Source of the DNA: Deroplatys truncata
Lineage: Eukaryota; Arthropoda; Insecta; Mantodea; Mantidae
Reading direction: 5' to 3'
Length of the DNA stretch: 64,000 bases
Assembly: GCA_030765065.1 (NCBI GenBank)
Contig: CM060990.1
Location: 662,668,618-662,732,617 of the forward strand
This document shows positions 12,129-59,224 of the stretch, piece by piece. The first letter of the stretch is position 1. Each line of letters opens with the position of its first letter. Made by a program: the position numbers and the translations under genes. The notes beneath the pieces are model-generated. The model made no database searches. It saw only the letters and a program-made list of their open reading frames with translations, and was not told where the DNA came from.

Positions 12129-12528
12129 TGTGTGTTGTTCAAATGGTTAATGGTTTGAGTGCAATGTAAACATCACACTTTGAGTGTCTTCACGCAGAAT
12201 AGCTGCTCTGCTTCTTCTGTTGTGTTTTATAGTGCTTCCTTTATAGCGTCATTTCTTTCTGTTATAATAGTGATAATTAATATGGCTTCTGATAATAGCA
12301 TTAGCAGATTTGCAGTAACTATAAACGTTAACTTATAGTTTCTTCTTTCGTTAAGAGCGTGAGAAAGACGATTTATTTAGTCTGTATGTACAATAATGAA
12401 CCAAATGTTAGCATTGTCAATTGAGCCTGCAGGTAGCATTTGGCCCTCCTGTTCCCCAACGTGCAAAAGGCAACCAACGTAGCTTCCCACCACTTCTTTC
12501 AGTCCAAGTGGTAGTGGAACTATCTCAA
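12129..12528. other. no gene recognised
   Basis: No supportable gene. This is the unique left flank of the tandem array that begins at 12529. Confidence 0.4.
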
Positions 12529-12561
12529 GGGACAAGTTATAATACGGCGATATATTATGCT

Positions 12562-12890
12562 GGGGCGGCGCCGTGGCCGAGTGGTTAGACCGCTCGCCTC
12601 TCACCGAGGCGGCCCGGGTTCAATCCCAGGGACCTGCATGTGGGATTTGTGGTGGACGAAGCGGCGTCTGGGCGGGTTTTCTCCGGGTTCTCCGGTTTCC
12701 ACCAACTGCTTCATCACCTTTCCTTTCATCCATTTCACCAACATTTCGTTTCATCTACTTCCTTCATCCCATACCAGGCATTGGGCTGATCACCCATCCT
12801 GGATGCTCTGTCTGATCCATGAGACGGGCCTCTGACCCCAGGCACCCGCTTGTAAGTCCTATATAAGAGGAGGGTAGACAGATAATGAAT
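12562..12890 (+). mobile_element. SINE-1 copy in F1
   Basis: tRNA-Ser/Leu-like head: box A 'tggccgagtggttag', box B 'gggttcaatccc'. Tail 'ataatgaat'. Flanked by a perfect 13-bp TSD GATATATTATGCT (12549-12561, 12891-12903). The overlapping ORFs on both strands are non-coding. Confidence 0.9.
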
Positions 12891-13084
12891 GATATATTAT
12901 GCTCAGGCATGTTGTCAACAATGGATAATTGCCTCAGAGATAGATATGATAGGTAAAAAACCTTGATAGTAGTTCTGATAAGGTGAAGGTTGTTGTCCAA
13001 AACCCATTAAAATGTGCAATTATCTTTGAACCTTCTAGTTTCATAATCTGTATTTATTATCTGTCAGTTATGCGTAAAAGGGAC

Positions 13085-13330
13085 GTCTTCCTCCGTGGTG
13101 TAGTGGTTACCATGCTAGCCTCTAGTGGCCGAGGTCGTGATTTCAAACCCGGCGGAGGGTGATGGGGTGGTACCGTGTCGTAGATTTACGGCACGTAAAG
13201 GGACCTCAAGCCTAATAAAGAGGCCTCTGAGCAAAATTACAGGTCTTTCATGCACAATATAGAATGGGACGCTAAGGACCACAGCAGTTAAAGAACGTCC
13301 ATAAATAAAACTCAATTTAATTTTAATTAC
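13085..13330 (+). mobile_element. SINE-3 copy in F1
   Basis: Head 'cctccgtggtgtagtggtta' and 'tttcaaacccggcggagg'. The body is shortened after the head (the 'gggaagtaaag' block is missing). The tail 'caatttaattttaatt' is AT-rich. Confidence 0.8.
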
Positions 13331-13910
13331 AGAAGTGGCGTCACGTGACTTTAAAGAACCCTGTGCACATGAACAAGCAAATATTTTAAACTTCAAAGCT
13401 GACATTGTTGCTTTCCGTTTTTTCCACATTTGTGGAGATTGAAAATGTTTCACACGATGCAATTTTTGTTAAATTTACTTCAAAATTTTAGGGAAAAATC
13501 TAAAAAATGAAGAAAATGTTGGAAATGATTTTTCTGAAGTTGATGTTTATGAGGATGTTAATTATTACATTCGAAGTGTTCACATCGTTTTTAACAAATA
13601 TTAAAATTAATTAAATCTTTAATTATTCATCTTGTGGAGCATTTCTTGTCTATGGTTAAATAATTGTGTTAAAAATTAATAACTTCAAAACTAATAAAGA
13701 TATTGCAATGAAATTTGGTATGCACTCTACTCCTTGCATGTGTAATGAATGATATAGATTTGAAGCTAATATATACATAATTGTAGAAGGTTGCAATTTC
13801 ACGTATGTGTACACTTAAGCTATTAAAAGGCACACACTTCGAAAATACACAACTATAGACACTATAAAATTAGCATATTTTACTCCAGTAAGCATCAAAC
13901 ATATAGGGTT
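13331..13910. other. AT-rich part of F1, nothing recognised
   Basis: No gene or known repeat. The same sequence recurs in F2 and F3. Confidence 0.45.
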
Positions 13911-14286
13911 TTATTCAAAAAGGAGGAACAGATTTTAAATATTCATTTTTAATGAACGACAATATATAGCGACACATAGGACACATCATTGAATAGAGGA
14001 AAGTTCAAAGTTTTAAGCCCCGCATATTAGTTCCATTCAGTGTCTACAGCGGCGCTGTGTTTGTTTACGAGAAAATGGCGACGCCACAGAAAAAGTCGTT
14101 TTGTGTGCTGCATTACGCAAAGAGTGAATCCATTGTTTCATTGCAGCGTGCATTTCGTTGTAAGTTCAACAACGAGCCGCCTCGTCATAAAAAATATACA
14201 ATTGATACAATAAATTCGTAGAAGACGGCTGCGTATGCATACGGAAAAGCACTGGTCCTCCTCGCATAACAAATGGTGCTCATTTT
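13911..14286 (+). pseudogene. mariner-like relic: left inverted repeat plus N-terminal HTH
   Basis: 13911-14020 is the left inverted repeat; its partner survives only after F3 (25593-25706). From the ATG at 14074 the frame reads ATPQKKSFCVLHYAKSES, then VSLQRAFRCKFNNEPP, then stops. A one-base shift restores NKFVEDGCVCIRKSTGPPRI. Together this is the DUF4817-type HTH of mariner-like transposases ('FCVLEYAKT.S....QR.FR.K....PP', 'F...GCLCKGKS.GRPR'). It is cut off at 14286 by retrotransposon L. Confidence 0.7.
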
Positions 14287-14316
14287 TCTTTTTCGCAAAC
14301 TTCTCAGGATGGGGAC

Positions 14317-14634
14317 ATGGAGATCGTTTGTGATGAAGAAGTAGAGATATCGGCAAGTGAGGTAGCACTTTTAAGGCAAAAGCCTTCTGCTTCTTTGTCT
14401 AGTCGAGATCCTCGGATACGGAGCCAGCATAGGCGGATGGATGTAGAAAGTGCCATGATACGACAGCACTCCCAAGATGTGCAACCGTTGTCCGGTAACT
14501 CTCCGGCTCGTTCCACAACGAAAGAGGCGGACTCAGGCAAGCGGCCGGCAGTAGATGACAGCGATGATTTTGAGGATCACCAACGTTCCCCTAAACTTAC
14601 AAAGGATGACCCGCACCCGGATAGTGATGATTGA
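14317..14634 (+). CDS. ORF1 C-terminal remnant of L (first copy)
   Basis: 105 aa, hydrophilic. It has a basic arginine-rich middle (SSRDPRIRSQHRRMD) and an acidic, serine-rich end (VDDSDDFEDHQRSPKLTKDD, then DSDD). No zinc knuckle, coiled coil or RRM is visible, so the conserved ORF1 core was probably lost by 5' truncation. The open frame extends upstream across the junction at 14287 into the mariner relic, so the ATG used here may not be a real start. It ends with TGA at 14632-14634. The same frame then stays open for 25 codons to a TAA that directly precedes the ORF2 ATG. Position before ORF2 on the same strand is the main reason for calling it ORF1. Confidence 0.55.
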   Translation: MEIVCDEEVEISASEVALLRQKPSASLSSRDPRIRSQHRRMDVESAMIRQHSQDVQPLSGNSPARSTTKEADSGKRPAVDDSDDFEDHQRSPKLTKDDPHPDSDD

Positions 14635-14709
14635 GATTGTGTTGTTTCTGGAGTGCTCCCTGGTTGTTCTCCGCTTGCAACCATTGAATATACGATCCTT
14701 GCCCTTTAA

Positions 14710-17700
14710 ATGCCGGTAGGTCTTCAAATATGGGCTTCGCTCAACGTTAACGGCCTGCGACAGGTTATTAAACAACAACTTTTAAAGGAATTTTTGATCA
14801 GTAATGACATAGACATTTGTTTTTTACAGGAGGTGAATCTTTGTAATCTGGATTTTTTGTATGGCTTCGATTACGAGACCAATCTTGGCCCCGAGGGTTC
14901 CGGTACGGCAATTGTTTACAGACAAGGCTTACGATTACACAGTTTTGGATACCATCCTTCCGGTAGGGTTCTTTCGGCAGTGTATGATGACGTGACTTTC
15001 GTGAATATCTACGCACCTGCTGGTAGTAATAAACGCAAACAACGAGAGGAGTTTTTTCGGCAAGACCTCCTGACCCATATCCCATCGGGTGCTACCTTTG
15101 TACTTGTCGGTGATTTTAATTGTACGTTGGCGGCCAAAGATCAACGCGGAGCCTTTAATGGGTGTGTTACTTTGCAGCAGCTGGTGGAGCAAATGCGGTT
15201 AAAGGATACCTGGGAGCATACGCATGGTTCCGCAGTACAATTTACTTTCGTGAGAGGCCTATCAGCATCGCGGCTGGACCGCATGTATGTGCCGGCTGAA
15301 CTCTTATCACGTCTTTATCGTACAGAGATAGTGGCTGTCGCATTCAGTGATCATAATGCACTCATACATGCCTTTGAAGGTAGGGCAGCGTTCTACACTA
15401 GAGGTAGAGGTTATTGGAAATTAAACTGCTCGTTGCTTATGGATGAGCAGGTGCTAAGGGATTTCCAGGATCTTTGGTCGCGGTTGCGGGTATCCTTTCT
15501 GCTAGCACAGAATAAAGCCTTCTGGTGGGTGTGTAAAGCCAAGCCTGCGCTTCGGTATTTCTTTCGGGCTGCAGCCTGTCGTCGGGTTCTGGATAGGAGG
15601 GAAACCATGGACTATTACCTTCAAGTCCTTCAGGAACTACACATACGCCAACAGCAAGGTGATGATGTTCAGTCTCTTATGAGAGGCATCAAGGAACACA
15701 TTAAGGCCCGAAAATCTAACGAGTTACAGGGGTGTTTGTCCAAAGTACACTCGGCGGAAGTGGTGTTTGGGGAAAAGGCGAGTTTTTACCATCTGGCGAA
15801 GGAACGTAAACATGGTCGCCGGAAGCTCGTCACTCATTTGGAGGTTGATGGACAGAAAATTTCCACTACAGCCGGAATTCTTCGTGAAGTGCACTCCTTT
15901 TACGTCCAACGCTTCTCCATCCCAGAGGAATGCTCCAGTGCTGTGGGCGAGTATATGTCTGGGGTTGCTCCGGTTGTCCCGGAGGAGCTGCGGCAGGATA
16001 CGACACCTGTTTCAGCAGCAGAGTTCATGGAAGTGATCCAGTCGTCAAAGCTGCATGCGTCTCCAGGACCTGATGGTCTACCATATGAATTTTACAAGCA
16101 CTGTAGGCGCTATATTCGGGAAGAATTACTTCAAGTTTTCCAGGTAATGTGGACCTCAGAGCGATTTCCGCCTACTTTTGCAGATGGGATAGTGGTCCAG
16201 CTTCCGAAGTGTGCGCAGCCGAAGACTCCACAGGATTATCGGCCGATCACGTTATTGAACTGTGACTACAAGTTGTTTGTTAAAATCATTGGTGTTCGTA
16301 TGCAGAAGATTCTACCCTTTATACTTAGCGAGATGCAGGCTGCCGTACATAAGGGGACGGCCATTCATCATACGCTGGCGGCATTGAGAGGTGGTATATT
16401 GCACTGTGCACAGGAACAACAGTCAGCTGCAGTCATTAATTTAGACCTTGAGAAGGCCTTTGACAACGTCGTTCACGGGGCACTATGGAAACGTTTGGTT
16501 GCCTTGAAAGTGCCCGATAAGCTCCGTAATCTTATCCGAGCCCTATATGATGTTGCTTCGTCTAAGATTCTCTGCAATGGGTATCTGACAGCTGCTATAC
16601 CCGTTAAACGTTCCGTCCGACAAGGTTGTCCCATGTCTATGATACTATTTGCCTTGTATGTCGATCCTTTACTTCGACGTCTTCAATCTACTCTTACCGG
16701 AATCGATGTGTATGGTCAGAGACTGGTGGTACGAGCCTACGCTGACGATATTACTGTAATGGTTACCACACCCCGCGATATTATGCGCCTAAAAGATTGT
16801 TTACAGCAATATGAGGAGACTACCGGAATGACATTTAATATGAGGAAGTCCGAGATATTTCCCATTGGATTACAACCTCCGGATACATCAGTTTTGGGCA
16901 TACCTGTTGTGCAGCGTACGAAAGTTCTGGGGATCTACTTTAGTACTGACGCAGAGGATATGCGGGAATACAACTGGACGTCTCGTATTAATATCTTACG
17001 TGGTGTGATGTATCAGCAAAAAACCAGGATGCTGAATTTGGTACAACGTATATGGTTTTGTAATAGCTTTGCGCTCAGCAGAATTTGGTTCCTTGCATCT
17101 GTTCTTCCGCCCTCAAAACGCCATTGCCAGAGAATAGAACAGATATTAGGTTATTTTATCTGGACAGGAAAGCTTTATCGTATTGCGCGTACGCAACTCC
17201 GTCTCCCTAAAGGTCAAGGTGGATGGGGATTATTAGAGGTGGTTCGTCAGTCTCAGGCCTTGATGATGCGAATGCTCTTGCTTGCCATGAATAACCAGGG
17301 TGACCCCGTGGATATTGCGCTACAACGACAATACTCATCCTTTTTGAATCGGGGCGAGCGTGACAAGGTTCCCCAAATGTTACGTGAAGTTTATCAGGTC
17401 TTGGAGAAGTTACCACCGGAGAAAGTGGGGAATGGTGACTTTAGTACGGTGAAGAAGATTTACACCTTTCTTGTTCAAGCTGCTCCCATTATCCCTCATG
17501 TCCAGCTGAAATACCCACAACTGCCCTGGAGGCGCATTTGGAGATGTTTTAACCTTCCACAGATTAACTCCGATTGGATGGCAGTAACGTATGCGGTGGT
17601 AAACGAAATCCTTCCAACGGCGGACAAACTCTATCGCCACCGGATGGCTATTTCCCACAACTGCCCACTTTGTAATGCCGAAGATTCCCTTCCTCATCGA

Positions 17701-18015
17701 CTGATGGAATGTTCCGGTAAAACTGTGGTCTGGACTTGGGTTTTAGGATATTGTCGTACTTGGATACCTACCGGATGGATTCCTCAACCCTCTGATATTT
17801 TGCATTTGAACATTCCTAAAGTAAGCCCCCCATTTTATAATTCCCTACTCTGGCTGATTATGGGCACCTTTACTTGGCTACAAACGTTGGACGATGCAGC
17901 TGATTGTGTACTGCCTCATCTACGACAATTTTTACGTGCTGCGAGATGGCAGATGATTCGGCAACACAGAACAGGGCCATTCCAGCCTTGGATATTCAGA
18001 TTTAAGCTCCACTAG
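14710..18015 (+). CDS. ORF2 protein: AP endonuclease + reverse transcriptase (first copy)
   Basis: 1101 aa, uninterrupted. Residues 1-220 form an exonuclease/endonuclease/phosphatase-type domain: LNVNGLR (11-17), QE (40-41), NIYAPAG (99-105), GDFN (134-137), SRLDR (187-191) and SDH (213-215), all catalytic positions of APE endonucleases present. Reverse transcriptase: PGPDGLPYEFYK (452-463), YRPITLLNCDYK (510-521), INLDLEKAFD with catalytic D579, VRQGCPMS (636-643) and YADD (677-680). The thumb and C-terminal region include IWTGKLYRIARTQLRLPKG, and the end carries a CX2CX7HX4C knuckle (C985, C988, H996, C1001). The protein would nick target DNA and prime cDNA synthesis (target-primed reverse transcription). 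The start at 14710 follows a TAA stop immediately (TAAATG). Length and all catalytic residues fit an active ORF2; RT motif style resembles Tx1/L1-group elements. Confidence 0.93.
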   Translation: MPVGLQIWASLNVNGLRQVIKQQLLKEFLISNDIDICFLQEVNLCNLDFLYGFDYETNLGPEGSGTAIVYRQGLRLHSFGYHPSGRVLSAVYDDVTFVNIYAPAGSNKRKQREEFFRQDLLTHIPSGATFVLVGDFNCTLAAKDQRGAFNGCVTLQQLVEQMRLKDTWEHTHGSAVQFTFVRGLSASRLDRMYVPAELLSRLYRTEIVAVAFSDHNALIHAFEGRAAFYTRGRGYWKLNCSLLMDEQVLRDFQDLWSRLRVSFLLAQNKAFWWVCKAKPALRYFFRAAACRRVLDRRETMDYYLQVLQELHIRQQQGDDVQSLMRGIKEHIKARKSNELQGCLSKVHSAEVVFGEKASFYHLAKERKHGRRKLVTHLEVDGQKISTTAGILREVHSFYVQRFSIPEECSSAVGEYMSGVAPVVPEELRQDTTPVSAAEFMEVIQSSKLHASPGPDGLPYEFYKHCRRYIREELLQVFQVMWTSERFPPTFADGIVVQLPKCAQPKTPQDYRPITLLNCDYKLFVKIIGVRMQKILPFILSEMQAAVHKGTAIHHTLAALRGGILHCAQEQQSAAVINLDLEKAFDNVVHGALWKRLVALKVPDKLRNLIRALYDVASSKILCNGYLTAAIPVKRSVRQGCPMSMILFALYVDPLLRRLQSTLTGIDVYGQRLVVRAYADDITVMVTTPRDIMRLKDCLQQYEETTGMTFNMRKSEIFPIGLQPPDTSVLGIPVVQRTKVLGIYFSTDAEDMREYNWTSRINILRGVMYQQKTRMLNLVQRIWFCNSFALSRIWFLASVLPPSKRHCQRIEQILGYFIWTGKLYRIARTQLRLPKGQGGWGLLEVVRQSQALMMRMLLLAMNNQGDPVDIALQRQYSSFLNRGERDKVPQMLREVYQVLEKLPPEKVGNGDFSTVKKIYTFLVQAAPIIPHVQLKYPQLPWRRIWRCFNLPQINSDWMAVTYAVVNEILPTADKLYRHRMAISHNCPLCNAEDSLPHRLMECSGKTVVWTWVLGYCRTWIPTGWIPQPSDILHLNIPKVSPPFYNSLLWLIMGTFTWLQTLDDAADCVLPHLRQFLRAARWQMIRQHRTGPFQPWIFRFKLH

Positions 18016-18176
18016 CACAGTAATACCCTTTTCCTTTTTGTTAGGATCCTGTTCTTCCTTGCTTAAAAAAAATAATAAAAAAATAAAAAAAAATAAAATA
18101 AAAAAATTAAAAAAAAATAACTAAAAAAAATATATTGAGCTTGTAACAAGTTAAAAAAAATACAGGAAAAAAAAAA
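18016..18176 (+). other. 3' UTR and A-rich tail of L (first copy)
   Basis: About 50 bp of 3' UTR, then an A-rich tail broken by T and short words (aataaa, 'ttgtaacaagtt'), ending in a run of A directly before F2. The inner word ACAAGTTA (18146-18153) recurs right after the junction at 18180-18187. Confidence 0.7.
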
Positions 18177-18209
18177 GGGACAAGTTATAATACGGCGATA
18201 TATTATGCT

Positions 18210-18522
18210 GGGGCGGCGCCGTGGCCGAGTGGTTAGACCGCTCGCCTCTCACCGAGGCGGCCCGGGTTCAATCCCAGGGACCTGCATGTGGGATTTGTGG
18301 TGGACGAAGCGGCGTCTGGGCGGGTTTTCTCCGGGTTCTGCTTCATCACCTTTCCTTTCATCCATTTCACCAACATTTCGTTTCATCTACTTCCTTCATC
18401 CCATACCAGGCATTGGGCTGATCACCCATCCTGGATGCTCTGTCTGATCCATGAGACGGGCCTCTGACCCCAGGCACCCGCTTGTAAGTCCTATATAAGA
18501 GGAGGGTAGACAGATAATGAAT
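18210..18522 (+). mobile_element. SINE-1 copy in F2
   Basis: Same insertion as in F1, with the same GATATATTATGCT TSD (18197-18209 and 18523-18535), but 16 bp shorter. Confidence 0.9.
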
Positions 18523-18731
18523 GATATATTATGCTCAGGCATGTTGTCAACAATGGATAATTGCCTCAGAGATAGATATGATAGGTAAAAAACCTTGATA
18601 GTAGTTCTGATAAGGTGAAGGTTGTTGTCCAAAACCCATTAAAATGTGTTGTTTTTTTGGGTGCAATTATCTTTGAACCTTCTAGTTTCATAATCTGTAT
18701 TTATTATCTGTCAGTTATGCGTAAAAGGGAC

Positions 18732-18977
18732 GTCTTCCTCCGTGGTGTAGTGGTTACCATGCTAGCCTCTAGTGGCCGAGGTCGTGATTTCAAACCCGGC
18801 GGAGGGTGATGGGGTGGTACCGTGTCGTAGATTTACGGCACGTAAAGGGACCTCAAGCCTAATAAAGAGGCCTCTGAGCAAAATTACAGGTCTTTCATGC
18901 ACAATATAGAATGGGACGCTAAGGACCACAGCAGTTAAAGAACGTCCATAAATAAAACTCAATTTAATTTTAATTAC
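18732..18977 (+). mobile_element. SINE-3 copy in F2
   Basis: Same insertion as at 13085-13330. Confidence 0.8.
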
Positions 18978-19557
18978 AGAAGTGGCGTCACGTGACTTTA
19001 AAGAACCCTGTGCACATGAACAAGCAAATATTTTAAACTTCAAAGCTGACATTGTTGCTTTCCGTTTTTTCCACATTTGTGGAGATTGAAAATGTTTCAC
19101 ACGATGCAATTTTTGTTAAATTTACTTCAAAATTTTAGGGAAAAATCTAAAAAATGAAGAAAATGTTGGAAATGATTTTTCTGAAGTTGATGTTTATGAG
19201 GATGTTAATTATTACATTCGAAGTGTTCACATCGTTTTTAACAAATATTAAAATTAATTAAATCTTTAATTATTCATCTTGTGGAGCATTTCTTGTCTAT
19301 GGTTAAATAATTGTGTTAAAAATTAATAACTTCAAAACTAATAAAGATATTGCAATGAAATTTGGTATGCACTCTACTCCTTGCATGTGTAATGAATGAT
19401 ATAGATTTGAAGCTAATATATACATAATTGTAGAAGGTTGCAATTTCACGTATGTGTACACTTAAGCTATTAAAAGGCACACACTTCGAAAATACACAAC
19501 TATAGACACTATAAAATTAGCATATTTTACTCCAGTAAGCATCAAACATATAGGGTT

Positions 19558-19933
19558 TTATTCAAAAAGGAGGAACAGATTTTAAATATTCATTTTTAAT
19601 GAACGACAATATATAGCGACGCATAGGACACATCATTGAATAGAGGAAAGTTCAAAGTTTTAAGCCCCGCATATTAGTTCCATTCAGTGTCTACAGCGGC
19701 GCTGTGTTTGTTTACGAGAAAATGGCGACGCCACAGAAAAAGTCGTTTTGTGTGCTGCATTACGCAAAGAGTGAATCCATTGTTTCATTGCAGCGTGCAT
19801 TTCGTTGTAAGTTCAACAACGAGCCGCCTCGTCATAAAAAATATACAATTGATACAATAAATTCGTAGAAGACGGCTGCGTATGCATACGGAAAAGCACT
19901 GGTCCTCCTCGCATAACAAATGGTGCTCATTTT
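19558..19933 (+). pseudogene. mariner-like relic in F2
   Basis: Same left inverted repeat and frameshifted HTH as at 13911-14286, cut by the second L. One base (gacGcat at 19621) is unique to this copy. Confidence 0.7.
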
Positions 19934-19963
19934 TCTTTTTCGCAAACTTCTCAGGATGGGGAC

Positions 19964-20281
19964 ATGGAGATCGTTTGTGATGAAGAAGTAGAGATATCGG
20001 CAAGTGAGGTAGCACTTTTAAGGCAAAAGCCTTCTGCTTCTTTGTCTAGTCGAGATCCTCGGATACGGAGCCAGCATAGGCGGATGGATGTAGAAAGTGC
20101 CATGATACGACAGCACTCCCAAGATGTGCAACCGTTGTCCGGTAACTCTCCGGCTCGTTCCACAACGAAAGAGGCGGACTCAGGCAAGCGGCCGGCAGTA
20201 GATGACAGCGATGATTTTGAGGATCACCAACGTTCCCCTAAACTTACAAAGGATGACCCGCACCCGGATAGTGATGATTGA
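19964..20281 (+). CDS. ORF1 C-terminal remnant of L (second copy)
   Basis: Protein identical to that of 14317-14634 (105 aa, basic middle, acidic tail). The same caveat on its start applies: the frame is open upstream into the target sequence. The TGA at 20279-20281 is also followed by 25 open codons before TAAATG. Confidence 0.55.
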   Translation: MEIVCDEEVEISASEVALLRQKPSASLSSRDPRIRSQHRRMDVESAMIRQHSQDVQPLSGNSPARSTTKEADSGKRPAVDDSDDFEDHQRSPKLTKDDPHPDSDD

Positions 20282-20356
20282 GATTGTGTTGTTTCTGGAG
20301 TGCTCCCTGGTTGTTCTCCGCTTGCAACCATTGAATATACGATCCTTGCCCTTTAA

Positions 20357-23300
20357 ATGCCGGTAGGTCTTCAAATATGGGCTTCGCTCAACGTTAACGG
20401 CCTGCGACAGGTTATTAAACAACAACTTTTAAAGGAATTTTTGATCAGTAATGACATAGACATTTGTTTTTTACAGGAGGTGAATCTTTGTAATCTGGAT
20501 TTTTTGTATGGCTTCGATTACGAGACCAATCTTGGCCCCGAGGGTTCCGGTACGGCAATTGTTTACAGACAAGGCTTACGATTACACAGTTTTGGATACC
20601 ATCCTTCCGGTAGGGTTCTTTCGGCAGTGTATGATGACGTGACTTTCGTGAATATCTACGCACCTGCTGGTAGTAATAAACGCAAACAACGAGAGGAGTT
20701 TTTTCGGCAAGACCTCCTGACCCATATCCCATCGGGTGCTACCTTTGTACTTGTCGGTGATTTTAATTGTACGTTGGCGGCCAAAGATCAACGCGGAGCC
20801 TTTAATGGGTGTGTTACTTTGCAGCAGCTGGTGGAGCAAATGCGGTTAAAGGATACCTGGGAGCATACGCATGGTTCCGCAGTACAATTTACTTTCGTGA
20901 GAGGCCTATCAGCATCGCGGCTGGACCGCATGTATGTGCCGGCTGAACTCTTATCACGTCTTTATCGTACAGAGATAGTGGCTGTCGCATTCAGTGATCA
21001 TAATGCACTCATACATGCCTTTGAAGGTAGGGCAGCGTTCTACACTAGAGGTAGAGGTTATTGGAAATTAAACTGCTCGTTGCTTATGGATGAGCAGGTG
21101 CTAAGGGATTTCCAGGATCTTTGGTCGCGGTTGCGGGTATCCTTTCTGCTAGCACAGAATAAAGCCTTCTGGTGGGTGTGTAAAGCCAAGCCTGCGCTTC
21201 GGTATTTCTTTCGGGCTGCAGCCTGTCGTCGGGTTCTGGATAGGAGGGAAACCATGGACTATTACCTTCAAGTCCTTCAGGAACTACACATACGCCAACA
21301 GCAAGGTGATGATGTTCAGTCTCTTATGAGAGGCATCAAGGAACACATTAAGGCCCGAAAATCTAACGAGTTACAGGGGTGTTTGTCCAAAGTACACTCG
21401 GCGGAAGTGGTGTTTGGGGAAAAGGCGAGTTTTTACCATCTGGCGAAGGAACGTAAACATGGTCGCCGGAAGCTCGTCACTCATTTGGAGGTTGATGGAC
21501 AGAAAATTTCCACTACAGCCGGAATTCTTCGTGAAGTGCACTCCTTTTACGTCCAACGCTTCTCCATCCCAGAGGAATGCTCCAGTGCTGTGGGCGAGTA
21601 TATGTCTGGGGTTGCTCCGGTTGTCCCGGAGGAGCTGCGGCAGGATACGACACCTGTTTCAGCAGCAGAGTTCATGGAAGTGATCCAGTCGTCAAAGCTG
21701 CATGCGTCTCCAGGACCTGATGGTCTACCATATGAATTTTACAAGCACTGTAGGCGCTATATTCGGGAAGAATTACTTCAAGTTTTCCAGGTAATGTGGA
21801 CCTCAGAGCGATTTCCGCCTACTTTTGCAGATGGGATAGTGGTCCAGCTTCCGAAGTGTGCGCAGCCGAAGACTCCACAGGATTATCGGCCGATCACGTT
21901 ATTGAACTGTGACTACAAGTTGTTTGTTAAAATCATTGGTGTTCGTATGCAGAAGATTCTACCCTTTATACTTAGCGAGATGCAGGCTGCCGTACATAAG
22001 GGGACGGCCATTCATCATACGCTGGCGGCATTGAGAGGTGGTATATTGCACTGTGCACAGGAACAACAGTCAGCTGCAGTCATTAATTTAGACCTTGAGA
22101 AGGCCTTTGACAACGTCGTTCACGGGGCACTATGGAAACGTTTGGTTGCCTTGAAAGTGCCCGATAAGCTCCGTAATCTTATCCGAGCCCTATATGATGT
22201 TGCTTCGTCTAAGATTCTCTGCAATGGGTATCTGACAGCTGCTATACCCGTTAAACGTTCCGTCCGACAAGGTTGTCCCATGTCTATGATACTATTTGCC
22301 TTGTATGTCGATCCTTTACTTCGACGTCTTCAATCTACTCTTACCGGAATCGATGTGTATGGTCAGAGACTGGTGGTACGAGCCTACGCTGACGATATTA
22401 CTGTAATGGTTACCACACCCCGCGATATTATGCGCCTAAAAGATTGTTTACAGCAATATGAGGAGACTACCGGAATGACATTTAATATGAGGAAGTCCGA
22501 GATATTTCCCATTGGATTACAACCTCCGGATACATCAGTTTTGGGCATACCTGTTGTGCAGCGTACGAAAGTTCTGGGGATCTACTTTAGTACTGACGCA
22601 GAGGATATGCGGGAATACAACTGGACGTCTCGTATTAATATCTTACGTGGTGTGATGTATCAGCAAAAAACCAGGATGCTGAATTTGGTACAACGTATAT
22701 GGTTTTGTAATAGCTTTGCGCTCAGCAGAATTTGGTTCCTTGCATCTGTTCTTCCGCCCTCAAAACGCCATTGCCAGAGAATAGAACAGATATTAGGTTA
22801 TTTTATCTGGACAGGAAAGCTTTATCGTATTGCGCGTACGCAACTCCGTCTCCCTAAAGGTCAAGGTGGATGGGGATTATTAGAGGTGGTTCGTCAGTCT
22901 CAGGCCTTGATGATGCGAATGCTCTTGCTTGCCATGAATAACCAGGGTGACCCCGTGGATATTGCGCTACAACGACAATACTCATCCTTTTTGAATCGGG
23001 GCGAGCGTGACAAGGTTCCCCAAATGTTACGTGAAGTTTATCAGGTCTTGGAGAAGTTACCACCGGAGAAAGTGGGGAATGGTGACTTTAGTACGGTGAA
23101 GAAGATTTACACCTTTCTTGTTCAAGCTGCTCCCATTATCCCTCATGTCCAGCTGAAATACCCACAACTGCCCTGGAGGCGCATTTGGAGATGTTTTAAC
23201 CTTCCACAGATTAACTCCGATTGGATGGCAGTAACGTATGCGGTGGTAAACGAAATCCTTCCAACGGCGGACAAACTCTATCGCCACCGGATGGCTATTT

Positions 23301-23662
23301 CCCACAACTGCCCACTTTGTAATGCCGAAGATTCCCTTCCTCATCGACTGATGGAATGTTCCGGTAAAACTGTGGTCTGGACTTGGGTTTTAGGATATTG
23401 TCGTACTTGGATACCTACCGGATGGATTCCTCAACCCTCTGATATTTTGCATTTGAACATTCCTAAAGTAAGCCCCCCATTTTATAATTCCCTACTCTGG
23501 CTGATTATGGGCACCTTTACTTGGCTACAAACGTTGGACGATGCAGCTGATTGTGTACTGCCTCATCTACGACAATTTTTACGTGCTGCGAGATGGCAGA
23601 TGATTCGGCAACACAGAACAGGGCCATTCCAGCCTTGGATATTCAGATTTAAGCTCCACTAG
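20357..23662 (+). CDS. ORF2 protein: AP endonuclease + reverse transcriptase (second copy)
   Basis: 1101 aa with the same predicted protein as 14710-18015. All endonuclease (GDFN, SDH), reverse transcriptase (LDLEKAFD, YADD) and CCHC motifs are intact at the same residues. Absence of protein differences over 1101 codons means the tandem duplication is very recent, or that gene conversion or assembly duplication keeps the copies the same. Both copies sit on the same strand, 5647 bp apart, each preceded by its own F. Confidence 0.93.
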   Translation: MPVGLQIWASLNVNGLRQVIKQQLLKEFLISNDIDICFLQEVNLCNLDFLYGFDYETNLGPEGSGTAIVYRQGLRLHSFGYHPSGRVLSAVYDDVTFVNIYAPAGSNKRKQREEFFRQDLLTHIPSGATFVLVGDFNCTLAAKDQRGAFNGCVTLQQLVEQMRLKDTWEHTHGSAVQFTFVRGLSASRLDRMYVPAELLSRLYRTEIVAVAFSDHNALIHAFEGRAAFYTRGRGYWKLNCSLLMDEQVLRDFQDLWSRLRVSFLLAQNKAFWWVCKAKPALRYFFRAAACRRVLDRRETMDYYLQVLQELHIRQQQGDDVQSLMRGIKEHIKARKSNELQGCLSKVHSAEVVFGEKASFYHLAKERKHGRRKLVTHLEVDGQKISTTAGILREVHSFYVQRFSIPEECSSAVGEYMSGVAPVVPEELRQDTTPVSAAEFMEVIQSSKLHASPGPDGLPYEFYKHCRRYIREELLQVFQVMWTSERFPPTFADGIVVQLPKCAQPKTPQDYRPITLLNCDYKLFVKIIGVRMQKILPFILSEMQAAVHKGTAIHHTLAALRGGILHCAQEQQSAAVINLDLEKAFDNVVHGALWKRLVALKVPDKLRNLIRALYDVASSKILCNGYLTAAIPVKRSVRQGCPMSMILFALYVDPLLRRLQSTLTGIDVYGQRLVVRAYADDITVMVTTPRDIMRLKDCLQQYEETTGMTFNMRKSEIFPIGLQPPDTSVLGIPVVQRTKVLGIYFSTDAEDMREYNWTSRINILRGVMYQQKTRMLNLVQRIWFCNSFALSRIWFLASVLPPSKRHCQRIEQILGYFIWTGKLYRIARTQLRLPKGQGGWGLLEVVRQSQALMMRMLLLAMNNQGDPVDIALQRQYSSFLNRGERDKVPQMLREVYQVLEKLPPEKVGNGDFSTVKKIYTFLVQAAPIIPHVQLKYPQLPWRRIWRCFNLPQINSDWMAVTYAVVNEILPTADKLYRHRMAISHNCPLCNAEDSLPHRLMECSGKTVVWTWVLGYCRTWIPTGWIPQPSDILHLNIPKVSPPFYNSLLWLIMGTFTWLQTLDDAADCVLPHLRQFLRAARWQMIRQHRTGPFQPWIFRFKLH

Positions 23663-23824
23663 CACAGTAATACCCTTTTCCTTTTTGTTAGGATCCTGTT
23701 CTTCCTTGCTTAAAAAAAATAATAAAAAAATAAAAAAAAAATAAAATAAAAAAATTAAAAAAAAATAACTAAAAAAAATATATTGAGCTTGTAACAAGTT
23801 AAAAAAAATACAGGAAAAAAAAAA
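23663..23824 (+). other. 3' UTR and A-rich tail of L (second copy)
   Basis: As for the first copy, one A longer, directly joined to F3 at 23825. Confidence 0.7.
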
Positions 23825-23857
23825 GGGACAAGTTATAATACGGCGATATATTATGCT

Positions 23858-24170
23858 GGGGCGGCGCCGTGGCCGAGTGGTTAGACCGCTCGCCTCTCAC
23901 CGAGGCGGCCCGGGTTCAATCCCAGGGACCTGCATGTGGGATTTGTGGTGGACGAAGCGGCGTCTGGGCGGGTTTTCTCCGGGTTCTGCTTCATCACCTT
24001 TCCTTTCATCCATTTCACCAACATTTCGTTTCATCTACTTCCTTCATCCCATACCAGGCATTGGGCTGATCACCCATCCTGGATGCTCTGTCTGATCCAT
24101 GAGACGGGCCTCTGACCCCAGGCACCCGCTTGTAAGTCCTATATAAGAGGAGGGTAGACAGATAATGAAT
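23858..24170 (+). mobile_element. SINE-1 copy in F3
   Basis: Same insertion as in F1 and F2, with the 16-bp deletion of F2. Confidence 0.9.
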
Positions 24171-24379
24171 GATATATTATGCTCAGGCATGTTGTCAACA
24201 ATGGATAATTGCCTCAGAGATAGATATGATAGGTAAAAAACCTTGATAGTAGTTCTGATAAGGTGAAGGTTGTTGTCCAAAACCCATTAAAATGTGTTGT
24301 TATTTTGGGTGCAATTATCTTTGAACCTTCTAGTTTCATAATCTGTATTTATTATCTGTCAGTTATGCGTAAAAGGGAC

Positions 24380-24625
24380 GTCTTCCTCCGTGGTGTAGTG
24401 GTTACCATGCTAGCCTCTAGTGGCCGAGGTCGTGATTTCAAACCCGGCGGAGGGTGATGGGGTGGTACCGTGTCGTAGATTTACGGCACGTAAAGGGACC
24501 TCAAGCCTAATAAAGAGGCCTCTGAGCAAAATTACAGGTCTTTCATGCACAATATAGAATGGGACGCTAAGGACCACAGCAGTTAAAGAACGTCCATAAA
24601 TAAAACTCAATTTAATTTTAATTAC
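24380..24625 (+). mobile_element. SINE-3 copy in F3
   Basis: Same insertion as at 13085-13330. Confidence 0.8.
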
Positions 24626-25196
24626 AGAAGTGGCGTCACGTGACTTTAAAGAACCCTGTGCACATGAACAAGCAAATATTTTAAACTTCAAAGCTGACAT
24701 TGTTGCTTTCCGTTTTTTCCACATTTGTGGAGATTGAAAATGTTTCACACGATGCAATTTTTGTTAAATTTACTTCAAAATTTTAGGGAAAAATCTAAAA
24801 AATGAAGAAAATGTTGGAAATGATTTTTCTGAAGTTGATGTTTATGAGGATGTTAATTATTACATTCGAAGTGTTCACATCGTTTTTAACAAATATTAAA
24901 ATTAATTAAATCTTTAATTATTCATCTTGTGGAGCATTTCTTGTCTATGGTTAAATAATTGTGTTAAAAATTAATAACTTCAAAACTAATAAAGATATTG
25001 CAATGAAATTTGGTATGCACTCTACTCCTTGCATGTGTAATGAATGATATAGATTTGAAGCTAATATATACATAATTGTAGAAGGTTGCAATTTCACGTA
25101 TGTGTACACTTAAGCTATTAAAAGGCACACACTTCGAAAATACACAACTATAGACACTATAAAATTAGCATATTTTACTCCAGTAAGCATCAAACA

Positions 25197-25711
25197 TATA
25201 GGGTTTTATTCAAAAAGGAGGAACAGATTTTAAATATTCATTTTTAATGAACGACAATATATAGCGACACATAGGACACATCATTGAATAGAGGAAAGTT
25301 CAAAGTTTTAAGCCCCACATATTAGTTCCATTCAGTGTCTACAGCGGCGCTGTGTTTGTTTACGAGAAAATGGCGACGCCACAGAAAAAGTCGTTTTGTG
25401 TGCTGCATTACGCAAAGAGTGAATCCATTGTTTCATTGCAGCGTGCATTTCGTTGTAAGTTCAACAACGAGCCGCCTCGTCATAAAAAATATACAATTGA
25501 TACAATAAATTCGTAGAAGACGGGTGCGTATGCATACGGAAAAGCACTGGTCCTCCTCGCATAACAAATGGTGCTCATTTTGAACACATCAAATAAAACT
25601 TTGAACTTTTCTCTATTCAGCGATGTATCGCATGCGTCGCCATCTATTGTCGTTCATTAGAAATAAACATTTAAAGTCTGTTCCTTCTTTTTGTATAATA
25701 CTGTATTTACA
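25197..25711 (+). mobile_element. mariner-type element with ~110-bp inverted repeats, complete only here
   Basis: Left arm 25201-25311 and right arm about 25593-25706 are imperfect inverted repeats (for example 'ttgaactt(t/c)tctattca' against its complement in the left arm). Between them lies the HTH fragment starting at 25368 (KKSFCVLHYAKSES…). The F3/right-flank boundary (25581/25582) lies inside the element, so it crosses the point where L sits in F1 and F2. Confidence 0.7.
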
Positions 25712-32428: not shown

Positions 32429-32559
32429 AGGGCTGGCCACGTAGCTCAGTCGGTAGAGCCTGCTGTGCGAGGGGTCCTGGCTTCGATGCCCGGCTGGGGG
32501 CTGGGAATTTTTCTCTAGCTAAGATTATTGCTTATCCTCCCCAGAGTCTGGGAATGTGA

Positions 32560-44754: not shown

Positions 44755-44905
44755 CGTCTAGGGATACCATGTTCCCACACACACTCTGGGGAGGATAGGG
44801 AATAATCTTGGCTAAAGAAAAATTCCCACCCCCAGACGTGAATCGAACCCGGGACCACTCGCATAGCAGGCAGATGCTCTACCGACTGAGCTATGGGGCC
44901 AGGTT
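44755..44905 (-). mobile_element. SINE-4 copy, 5' half, reverse
   Basis: In reverse: 'cccatagctcagtcggtaga', box-B-like 'gggttcgattcacg', then 'ttattccctatcctccccag'. The 3' half is absent here. Confidence 0.7.
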
Positions 44906-58317: not shown

Positions 58318-59224
58318 AAGCAAGTTTCCCTATTTTATAAAAAACATTACACACAATTGATCATGTTGAATTAATTGTATTTATATTGTACACTCCTTCT
58401 GTTACTTTTCTACATATTCAACATGTTTTTCCAAGCATTTTTGGGGACCGGACACAGGTTTTTCCAAGCCAGTGTTGTACCAGGTCGGGTCCTGTGCTCG
58501 CAACCAGCTGTTCACTGATTTGACTTCATCATCGGTGTTAAAAGTGCTTACCTTTGAGTTGGAGGAACATTTGAAAATCACTTGGGGCAAGCTCCAGAGG
58601 ATACGAGGAAACTTCCAAGCTGAATCTTGACCCAGGTGGAGCTCAGAAGATTCAACTGGGAAGTTTTCTCGCATCTTCCATATTCCCCAGATCTTTTCCC
58701 AAGTGATTTTCACATGTTCCCCTGACTCAAAGGTCATCATGGAGGTAAGCACCTTAACACCGTGACGAAGATGATCAGAAGTGAACCAGAAGTCGGGTCT
58801 TGTGCTCGTAACCAGTACTTACATCCATGATGACCTTTGAGCCAGGGTAACATGTGAAAATCACTTGGGAAAAGATCTGGTGGATATGTAGGATACGAGA
58901 AAACTTCCCAGTTGAATCTTCTGAGCTCCGCCTGGGTCAAGATTCAACTTGGAAGTTTTCTCGTATCCTCCATATTCACCACAGCTTGCCCCACGTGATA
59001 TTCGCATGTTCCTCCAACTCAAAGGTAAAAACTTTTAACACCGATGATGAAGTCAAATCAGTGAACAGCTGGTTGCGAGCACAGGACCCGACCTGGTACA
59101 ACACTGGCTTGGAAAAACATGTTGACTATGTAGAAAAGTAACAGAAGGATTGTACAATATAAATAAAATTAATTCAACATGATCAATTGTGTGTAGTGTT
59201 TTTTATAAAATAGAGAAACTTACC
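58318..59224. mobile_element. foldback element: nested palindrome of mariner transposase 3' ends
   Basis: The two arms (about 58318-58741 and 58826-59224) are inverted copies. Each arm ends inward from 'aagtttccctattttataa' or its match and encodes on its outgoing strand the mariner C-terminus (VNSWLRAQDPTWYNTGLEK … YVEK). Within each arm is a smaller inverted repeat (about 58560-58730 and 58845-59015). The central minus frame contains FNWEVFSY, PPDLFPSDFHMLPWLKGH, the block with the last catalytic Asp. So four alternately inverted copies of one ~80-bp core sit in one locus. Confidence 0.75.

Follow-up and report, generated by a model that had tools for sequence, protein, structure and literature searches.

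In a 64,000-base stretch of the genome of the mantis Deroplatys truncata (the window: positions 662,668,618 to 662,732,617 of the 707-Mb contig CM060990.1, in the 4.29-Gb haploid assembly GCA_030765065.1, with an N count of 0), two copies of a long interspersed nuclear element (LINE), here called L, alternate with three copies of a 1.76-kb segment, F, in the direct order F-L-F-L-F. The whole array can be explained by two events, an aberrant insertion of L that left a copy of its target on either side (Fa-L-Fb) and a single unequal crossover inside F, a history to which we give a probability of roughly 0.7. Judged from sequence, F is probably a target site duplication (TSD) of about 1.76 kb from one LINE insertion event. 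The evidence for so large a duplication is that the right side of the original target is kept after the last F, that L carries a non-templated A-tail, that the inferred first-strand site fits the target motif of the element, and that relatives of L elsewhere in the genome have duplications of 5-8 bp. A giant TSD during LINE integration had been suggested in a preliminary description of this DNA, and that part of the interpretation stands; a later unequal crossover, which best accounts for the double unit, had been missed, and with it the point that a single insertion suffices.

Structure of the array

Self-comparison of the window confirmed that the array is real and far beyond chance. It occupies positions 12527-25581 with a period of about 5648 bp (5.65 kb). 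In self-BLAST, 12527-19933 matches 18175-25581 at 99.5% over 7.4 kb, and 12527-14286 matches 23823-25581 at 98.1% with 31 gap letters. The exact junctions quoted in the preliminary description were recovered, with refined coordinates. The parts are as follows (a slash in a sequence marks a joint or cut).

12527-14286, + strand: F1, left target copy (Fa); its left joint, CTATCTC/AAGGGAC, is the putative first-strand site
12571-12861, + strand: short interspersed nuclear element (SINE) of transfer RNA (tRNA) type in F1, present in F2 and F3 too
13014-14022, no strand: interval, in F1 coordinates, that contains the switch of F2 from F3-like on its left to F1-like on its right; polarity from SINE and MITE copies
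14287-18174, + strand: L1, 5'-truncated LINE-1-like element with non-templated A-tail
14317-14634, + strand: remnant of the C-terminal part of open reading frame (ORF) 1 in L1
14710-18015, + strand: ORF2 of L1, 1101 aa, with endonuclease, reverse transcriptase and zf-RVT
18175-19933, + strand: F2, middle copy, a mosaic that is F3-like on the left and F1-like on the right, with private bases at 18654 and 19621
19934-23822, + strand: L2, the same as L1 apart from one A
20357-23662, + strand: ORF2 of L2, 1101 aa, its protein the same as that of L1
23823-25581, + strand: F3, right target copy (Fb), running into the original right flank
25206-25706, + strand: intact mariner-type miniature inverted-repeat transposable element (MITE) across the joint of F3 and right flank (25581/25582), marking the unoccupied target

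Two A's that precede GGGACAAG could be assigned either to the target (CTCAA/GGG) or to the A-tail of L, and are counted here as part of F. The single A that separates L1 from L2 over about 3.9 kb is located in the A-rich 3' region.

The element

By its coding content, L is a LINE-1-like non-LTR (long terminal repeat) retrotransposon, presumably of the L1/Tx1 group. Its 1101-aa ORF contains the domains Exo_endo_phos (1e-13), RVT_1 (1e-33) and zf-RVT (4.1e-06), so that an apurinic-type endonuclease precedes a reverse transcriptase within a single frame; among solved structures, the top match of the protein is LINE-1 ORF2p (9.4e-62). The element also ends in a 3' poly(A) tail.

A whole-genome search, in which 39 of 470 candidates were scored (both window copies included), gave 37 other copies, 98-100% identical to L across that same stretch of 3.76 kb. 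These siblings are thus the best-scoring ones; 20 were fetched with about 3 kb on either side of the matched stretch, and 17 were read at their junctions only. All 20 fetched siblings share a common 5' end about 1.04 kb further upstream, and the 17 junction-only siblings show that same end. Because the siblings extend to it, the L of the window must be 5'-truncated by about 1.04 kb, with its break inside ORF1 (of three siblings in which ORF1 was read, two have it open over 407 codons and one over 322). The 5' joint of L reads CATTTT/TCTTTTTCGC and the corresponding sibling sequence ACCC/TCTTTTTCGC, so microhomology is absent.

L ends at the 3' side in ACAGG and then ten A's, of which two may be the target's own. 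All 11 siblings that have the ACAGG motif go on with T's where L has A's (the other 9 of the 20 are without the motif), which argues that the A's of L were added to the RNA and are non-templated.

Several siblings have extra sequence between successive A-runs beyond the family 3' end, and in some it is common to more than one (to L025 and L050; to L053, L054 and, in part, L056); the pattern is as would be expected of serial 3' transductions. One sibling (L042/L059) is located in a tandem repeat of about 66 bp, seen in its right flank.

The duplicated segment

By what it contains, F is host sequence. It carries the tRNA-type SINE, of which four related copies occur elsewhere in the window, and it holds the first 376 bases of the mariner-type MITE. 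The arms of this MITE lie at about 25203-25310 and 25594-25701 and are 85% complementary in self-BLAST, and 39 other near-full-length copies of the 501-bp element were found at 91-94% identity (40 places scored of 2648 candidates). That an inverted-repeat element of mariner type is completed after the last F, as had been noticed earlier, is therefore borne out, with refined arms. The sequence CATTTTGAACA reads uninterrupted in 7 of 7 aligned MITE copies and in F3, and F1 and F2 stop at CATTTT, where L begins. Since F3 continues as the MITE siblings do while F1 and F2 break off, the joint of F3 with the right flank represents the original, unoccupied sequence, just as the preliminary description had it. 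F thus adjoins both ends of L, with the right side of the empty target displayed by the MITE siblings; the left side, where the outer flank meets F1, is presumably original as well. Complete F was found 3 times in the assembly, each time within this array, a lower bound since 40 of 8200 candidates were scored; the search also passed over very common words.

Target site and second break

When the search was tied to the A-run, 21 of the 37 siblings proved to have exact duplications of 5-8 bp; another 8 had 4 bp, and the remaining 8 had none of at least 4 bp. Among 1332 mismatched pairs of left and right flanks used as a control, 13% reached at least 5 bp, and the 4-bp and no-duplication classes of siblings are near this control. 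A looser search that ignored the A-run did no better than the control (6-9 bp, versus 5-11 bp in mismatched pairs). Other copies of L with kilobase-scale TSDs, which the preliminary description had put forward as something to look for, did not turn up: no long direct repeat abuts the junctions in any of the 20 fetched siblings, within a 2-kb left flank beyond which longer or more distant repeats would be invisible. In three of the 20 (L010, L019 and L025) the two flanks do share repeats, but these do not abut the junctions, and the strongest of them, in L025, is 99 bp at 91%.

From the 21 sibling sites, the preferred target of L reads [CT][CGT]/AA[GC], with the first cut on the complementary strand. 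Scored by this motif, the left end of F, CTATCTC/AAGGGAC, is among the best 0.59% of all positions on the two strands of the window and so fits as well as the median sibling (0.56%, leave-one-out). Judged by its site, integration thus seems to have begun in the ordinary way, and the oddity would be the second break, 1.76 kb away.

If the right end is read as a top-strand cut, ATTTT/GAACA, it resembles an endonuclease site more than most of the window does (top 4.55% of positions), and the second cuts of 21 of 21 siblings rank lower (19.5% to 95.5%). It is one of 28 combinations of offset and strand that were scanned, but its position had been fixed beforehand by the joint. Another of these combinations, TTTTG/AACAC, one base to the right of the joint, ranks in the top 1.1%; picked from the 28, it was given no weight. 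We treat as a lead, rather doubtful at this stage, the idea that the endonuclease of L made the breaks at either end of F, one on each strand and 1.76 kb apart.

A hybrid middle copy

The F segments are not identical, a point that the preliminary description does not mention. They differ by one 16-bp and one 15-bp insertion or deletion (indel) and at four single-base sites, one of which falls within the 15-bp stretch. F1 and F3 differ from each other at 4 sites. Read from left to right, F2 agrees with F3 at the 16-bp and 15-bp indels and with F1 at 14022 and 14229 (F1 coordinates), so that 4 of 4 sites conform to a hybrid with a single switch. F2 also has two bases of its own, T at 18654 (where F3 has A and F1 is without the stretch) and G at 19621.

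Two of the four sites could be polarised, the 15-bp indel and 14229 being the exceptions. At the 16-bp site, 3 of the 4 other SINE copies retain the sequence that is missing from F2 and F3; the fourth has a larger gap there and is uninformative. F1 and F2 have G where 7 of 7 MITE siblings have A. A derived deletion therefore links F2 to F3, and a derived base links it to F1; because F2 has a derived state in common with each neighbour, its origin needs recombination, gene conversion or repeat mutation. The observed order of sites, together with the near identity of the two L copies, is best explained by an unequal crossover within F of a chromosome carrying Fa-L-Fb, an event that we infer from sequence and that would predict both exactly.

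Proposed history and alternatives

The array may thus have arisen in two steps. Target-primed reverse transcription of L would have started at the ordinary site CTATCTC/AAGGGAC and halted about 1.04 kb before the 5' end of the element. The end of the complementary DNA (cDNA) would then have joined a top-strand break in the mariner MITE (CATTTT/GAACAC), about 1.76 kb off rather than 5-8 bp, and fill-in or sister-chromatid bridging would have yielded Fa-L-Fb with a kilobase-scale target duplication. Later, unequal crossing-over of Fa with Fb on misaligned chromatids would have added one F-L unit, giving Fa - L - (Fb left, Fa right) - L - Fb with a hybrid middle F. The second break may be due to another cut by the endonuclease, to a replication fork or to a sister chromatid, and the sequence does not favour any of these; distant nicks and break repair, the two mechanisms offered in the preliminary description, cannot be separated at this locus.

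Several points weigh against this history. A large share of the motif score of the left-end site derives from the two A columns of the motif, which the site-finding method favours; without them the site stands at 7.7% and the siblings at 7.3%. The sibling set is full length throughout at the 5' end and so offers no sample of truncated L copies, and the left side of the array is without an empty copy to compare. The order of the four informative sites, taken alone, fits a single switch by chance 1 time in 6. Gene conversion could also produce the site order of F2, and much the same mosaic would result from an assembly loop.

This last alternative, that Fa-L-Fb is genuine and that the second L and the middle F come from an assembly graph walked twice around a loop, also accounts for a middle copy with Fb on its left and Fa on its right and for two near-identical L's. 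The private bases of F2 (18654 T and 19621 G), absent from both neighbours, speak against it without excluding it, and the window sequence contains no N; we regard a loop as unlikely. A giant duplication may instead have been followed by replication template switching or gene conversion in place of a reciprocal crossover, and either process could likewise account for the identical L's and for the mosaic F2. Yet one crossover within F explains the second unit most simply and requires no special breakpoints, which makes such a second step, to our minds, an improbable one. Both alternatives share with the two-step history the insertion that gave Fa-L-Fb.

Other readings dispense with the giant duplication. 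If a tandem F-F had existed beforehand, it would supply two F's, and L need only have inserted at their joint and then undergone unequal exchange; but L would have had to strike that joint to the base, it has no short duplication there, as against the 21 of 37 siblings that have one, and the F-F joint was not found elsewhere in the assembly among the 40 of 8200 F candidates scored. We consider this very unlikely. The layout of repeat-body-repeat-body-repeat also resembles that of an element with terminal repeats (an LTR or a Penelope-type pseudo-LTR), the array then being element-repeat-element. Such a repeat should recur at other copies, but it does so in none of the 20 siblings, complete F being found only here; F, with a SINE and a piece of a MITE inside it, continues into host sequence, and the protein of L has an endonuclease and reverse transcriptase of LINE-1 type. 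That F is a terminal repeat is scarcely credible on these grounds.

Two further schemes were rejected. A plain tandem duplication of an F-L unit would put L, not F, next to the right part of the MITE, and the earlier argument that it would not regenerate the empty site holds. Two independent insertions of L were set aside in view of the single A by which L1 and L2 differ.

Other features of the window

Positions 58454-59122 form a near-palindrome, 86% identical to its own reverse complement over 688 columns, and are probably a fold-back element. ARAGORN calls a tRNA-Ser (gct) at 44827-44900 on the - strand; a stretch at about 32433-32547 is related to it (84%), so the call may belong to a repeat.

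Relation to known systems

The comparisons with published work given here draw on excerpts of the papers cited. With engineered L1 in human cells deficient in nucleotide excision repair (NER), TSDs had a median of 1495 bp (range 5 bp to 5.3 kb), and in complemented cells a median of 14 bp (range 2 bp to 1.6 kb) (PMC5223499). The same source suggested that the second nick falls far from the first and that the long repeats recombine later, which would shorten the life span of large-TSD insertions. The locus in D. truncata is like these insertions in its kilobase-scale target duplication, and unlike them in that a native element of an animal is involved, not an engineered one in cultured human cells, and in that a unit was gained where loss of the insert was foreseen. 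In HeLa assays, extremely long TSDs accompany 5'-truncated L1 (Gilbert et al., per PMC2912911); L likewise combines 5' truncation with a radically altered target site, although that case is a cell assay of human L1. One tumour carried a tandem duplication of 22.6 Mb with an L1 as its bridge, for which sister-chromatid joining was proposed (PMC7058536). There too the cDNA was joined to a downstream break, with L1 between direct copies, but that event was somatic and spans 22.6 Mb, whereas the present one measures 1.76 kb and is part of a reference assembly. Ancestral-type R1 elements of Drosophila make duplications of 14 bp (PMC2718515).

The layout of the array also recalls tandem LTR elements in its alternation of repeat and body following exchange between flanking direct repeats. 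Tandem LTR elements arise by crossover between the LTRs; here, in contrast, the repeats are duplicated host target, outside the element. A natural kilobase-scale LINE TSD with a subsequent unequal crossover was not recognised in the literature searched, which covered few subscription journals and is weak evidence.

As far as the excerpts go, what was known before comprises kilobase L1 TSDs in cells that were repair-deficient or cultured and, from tumours, larger duplications bridged by L1. The present locus seems to be an instance from nature, in the genome of an animal, and one where the repeats recombined with gain and not loss as the outcome. It offers a route by which a single retrotransposition may lead to a tandem array that carries duplicated host DNA. 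If the endonuclease of L did cut both ends of F, a LINE could duplicate kilobase-sized host modules by paired nicking, and such duplications would seed self-expanding tandem arrays in germ lines.

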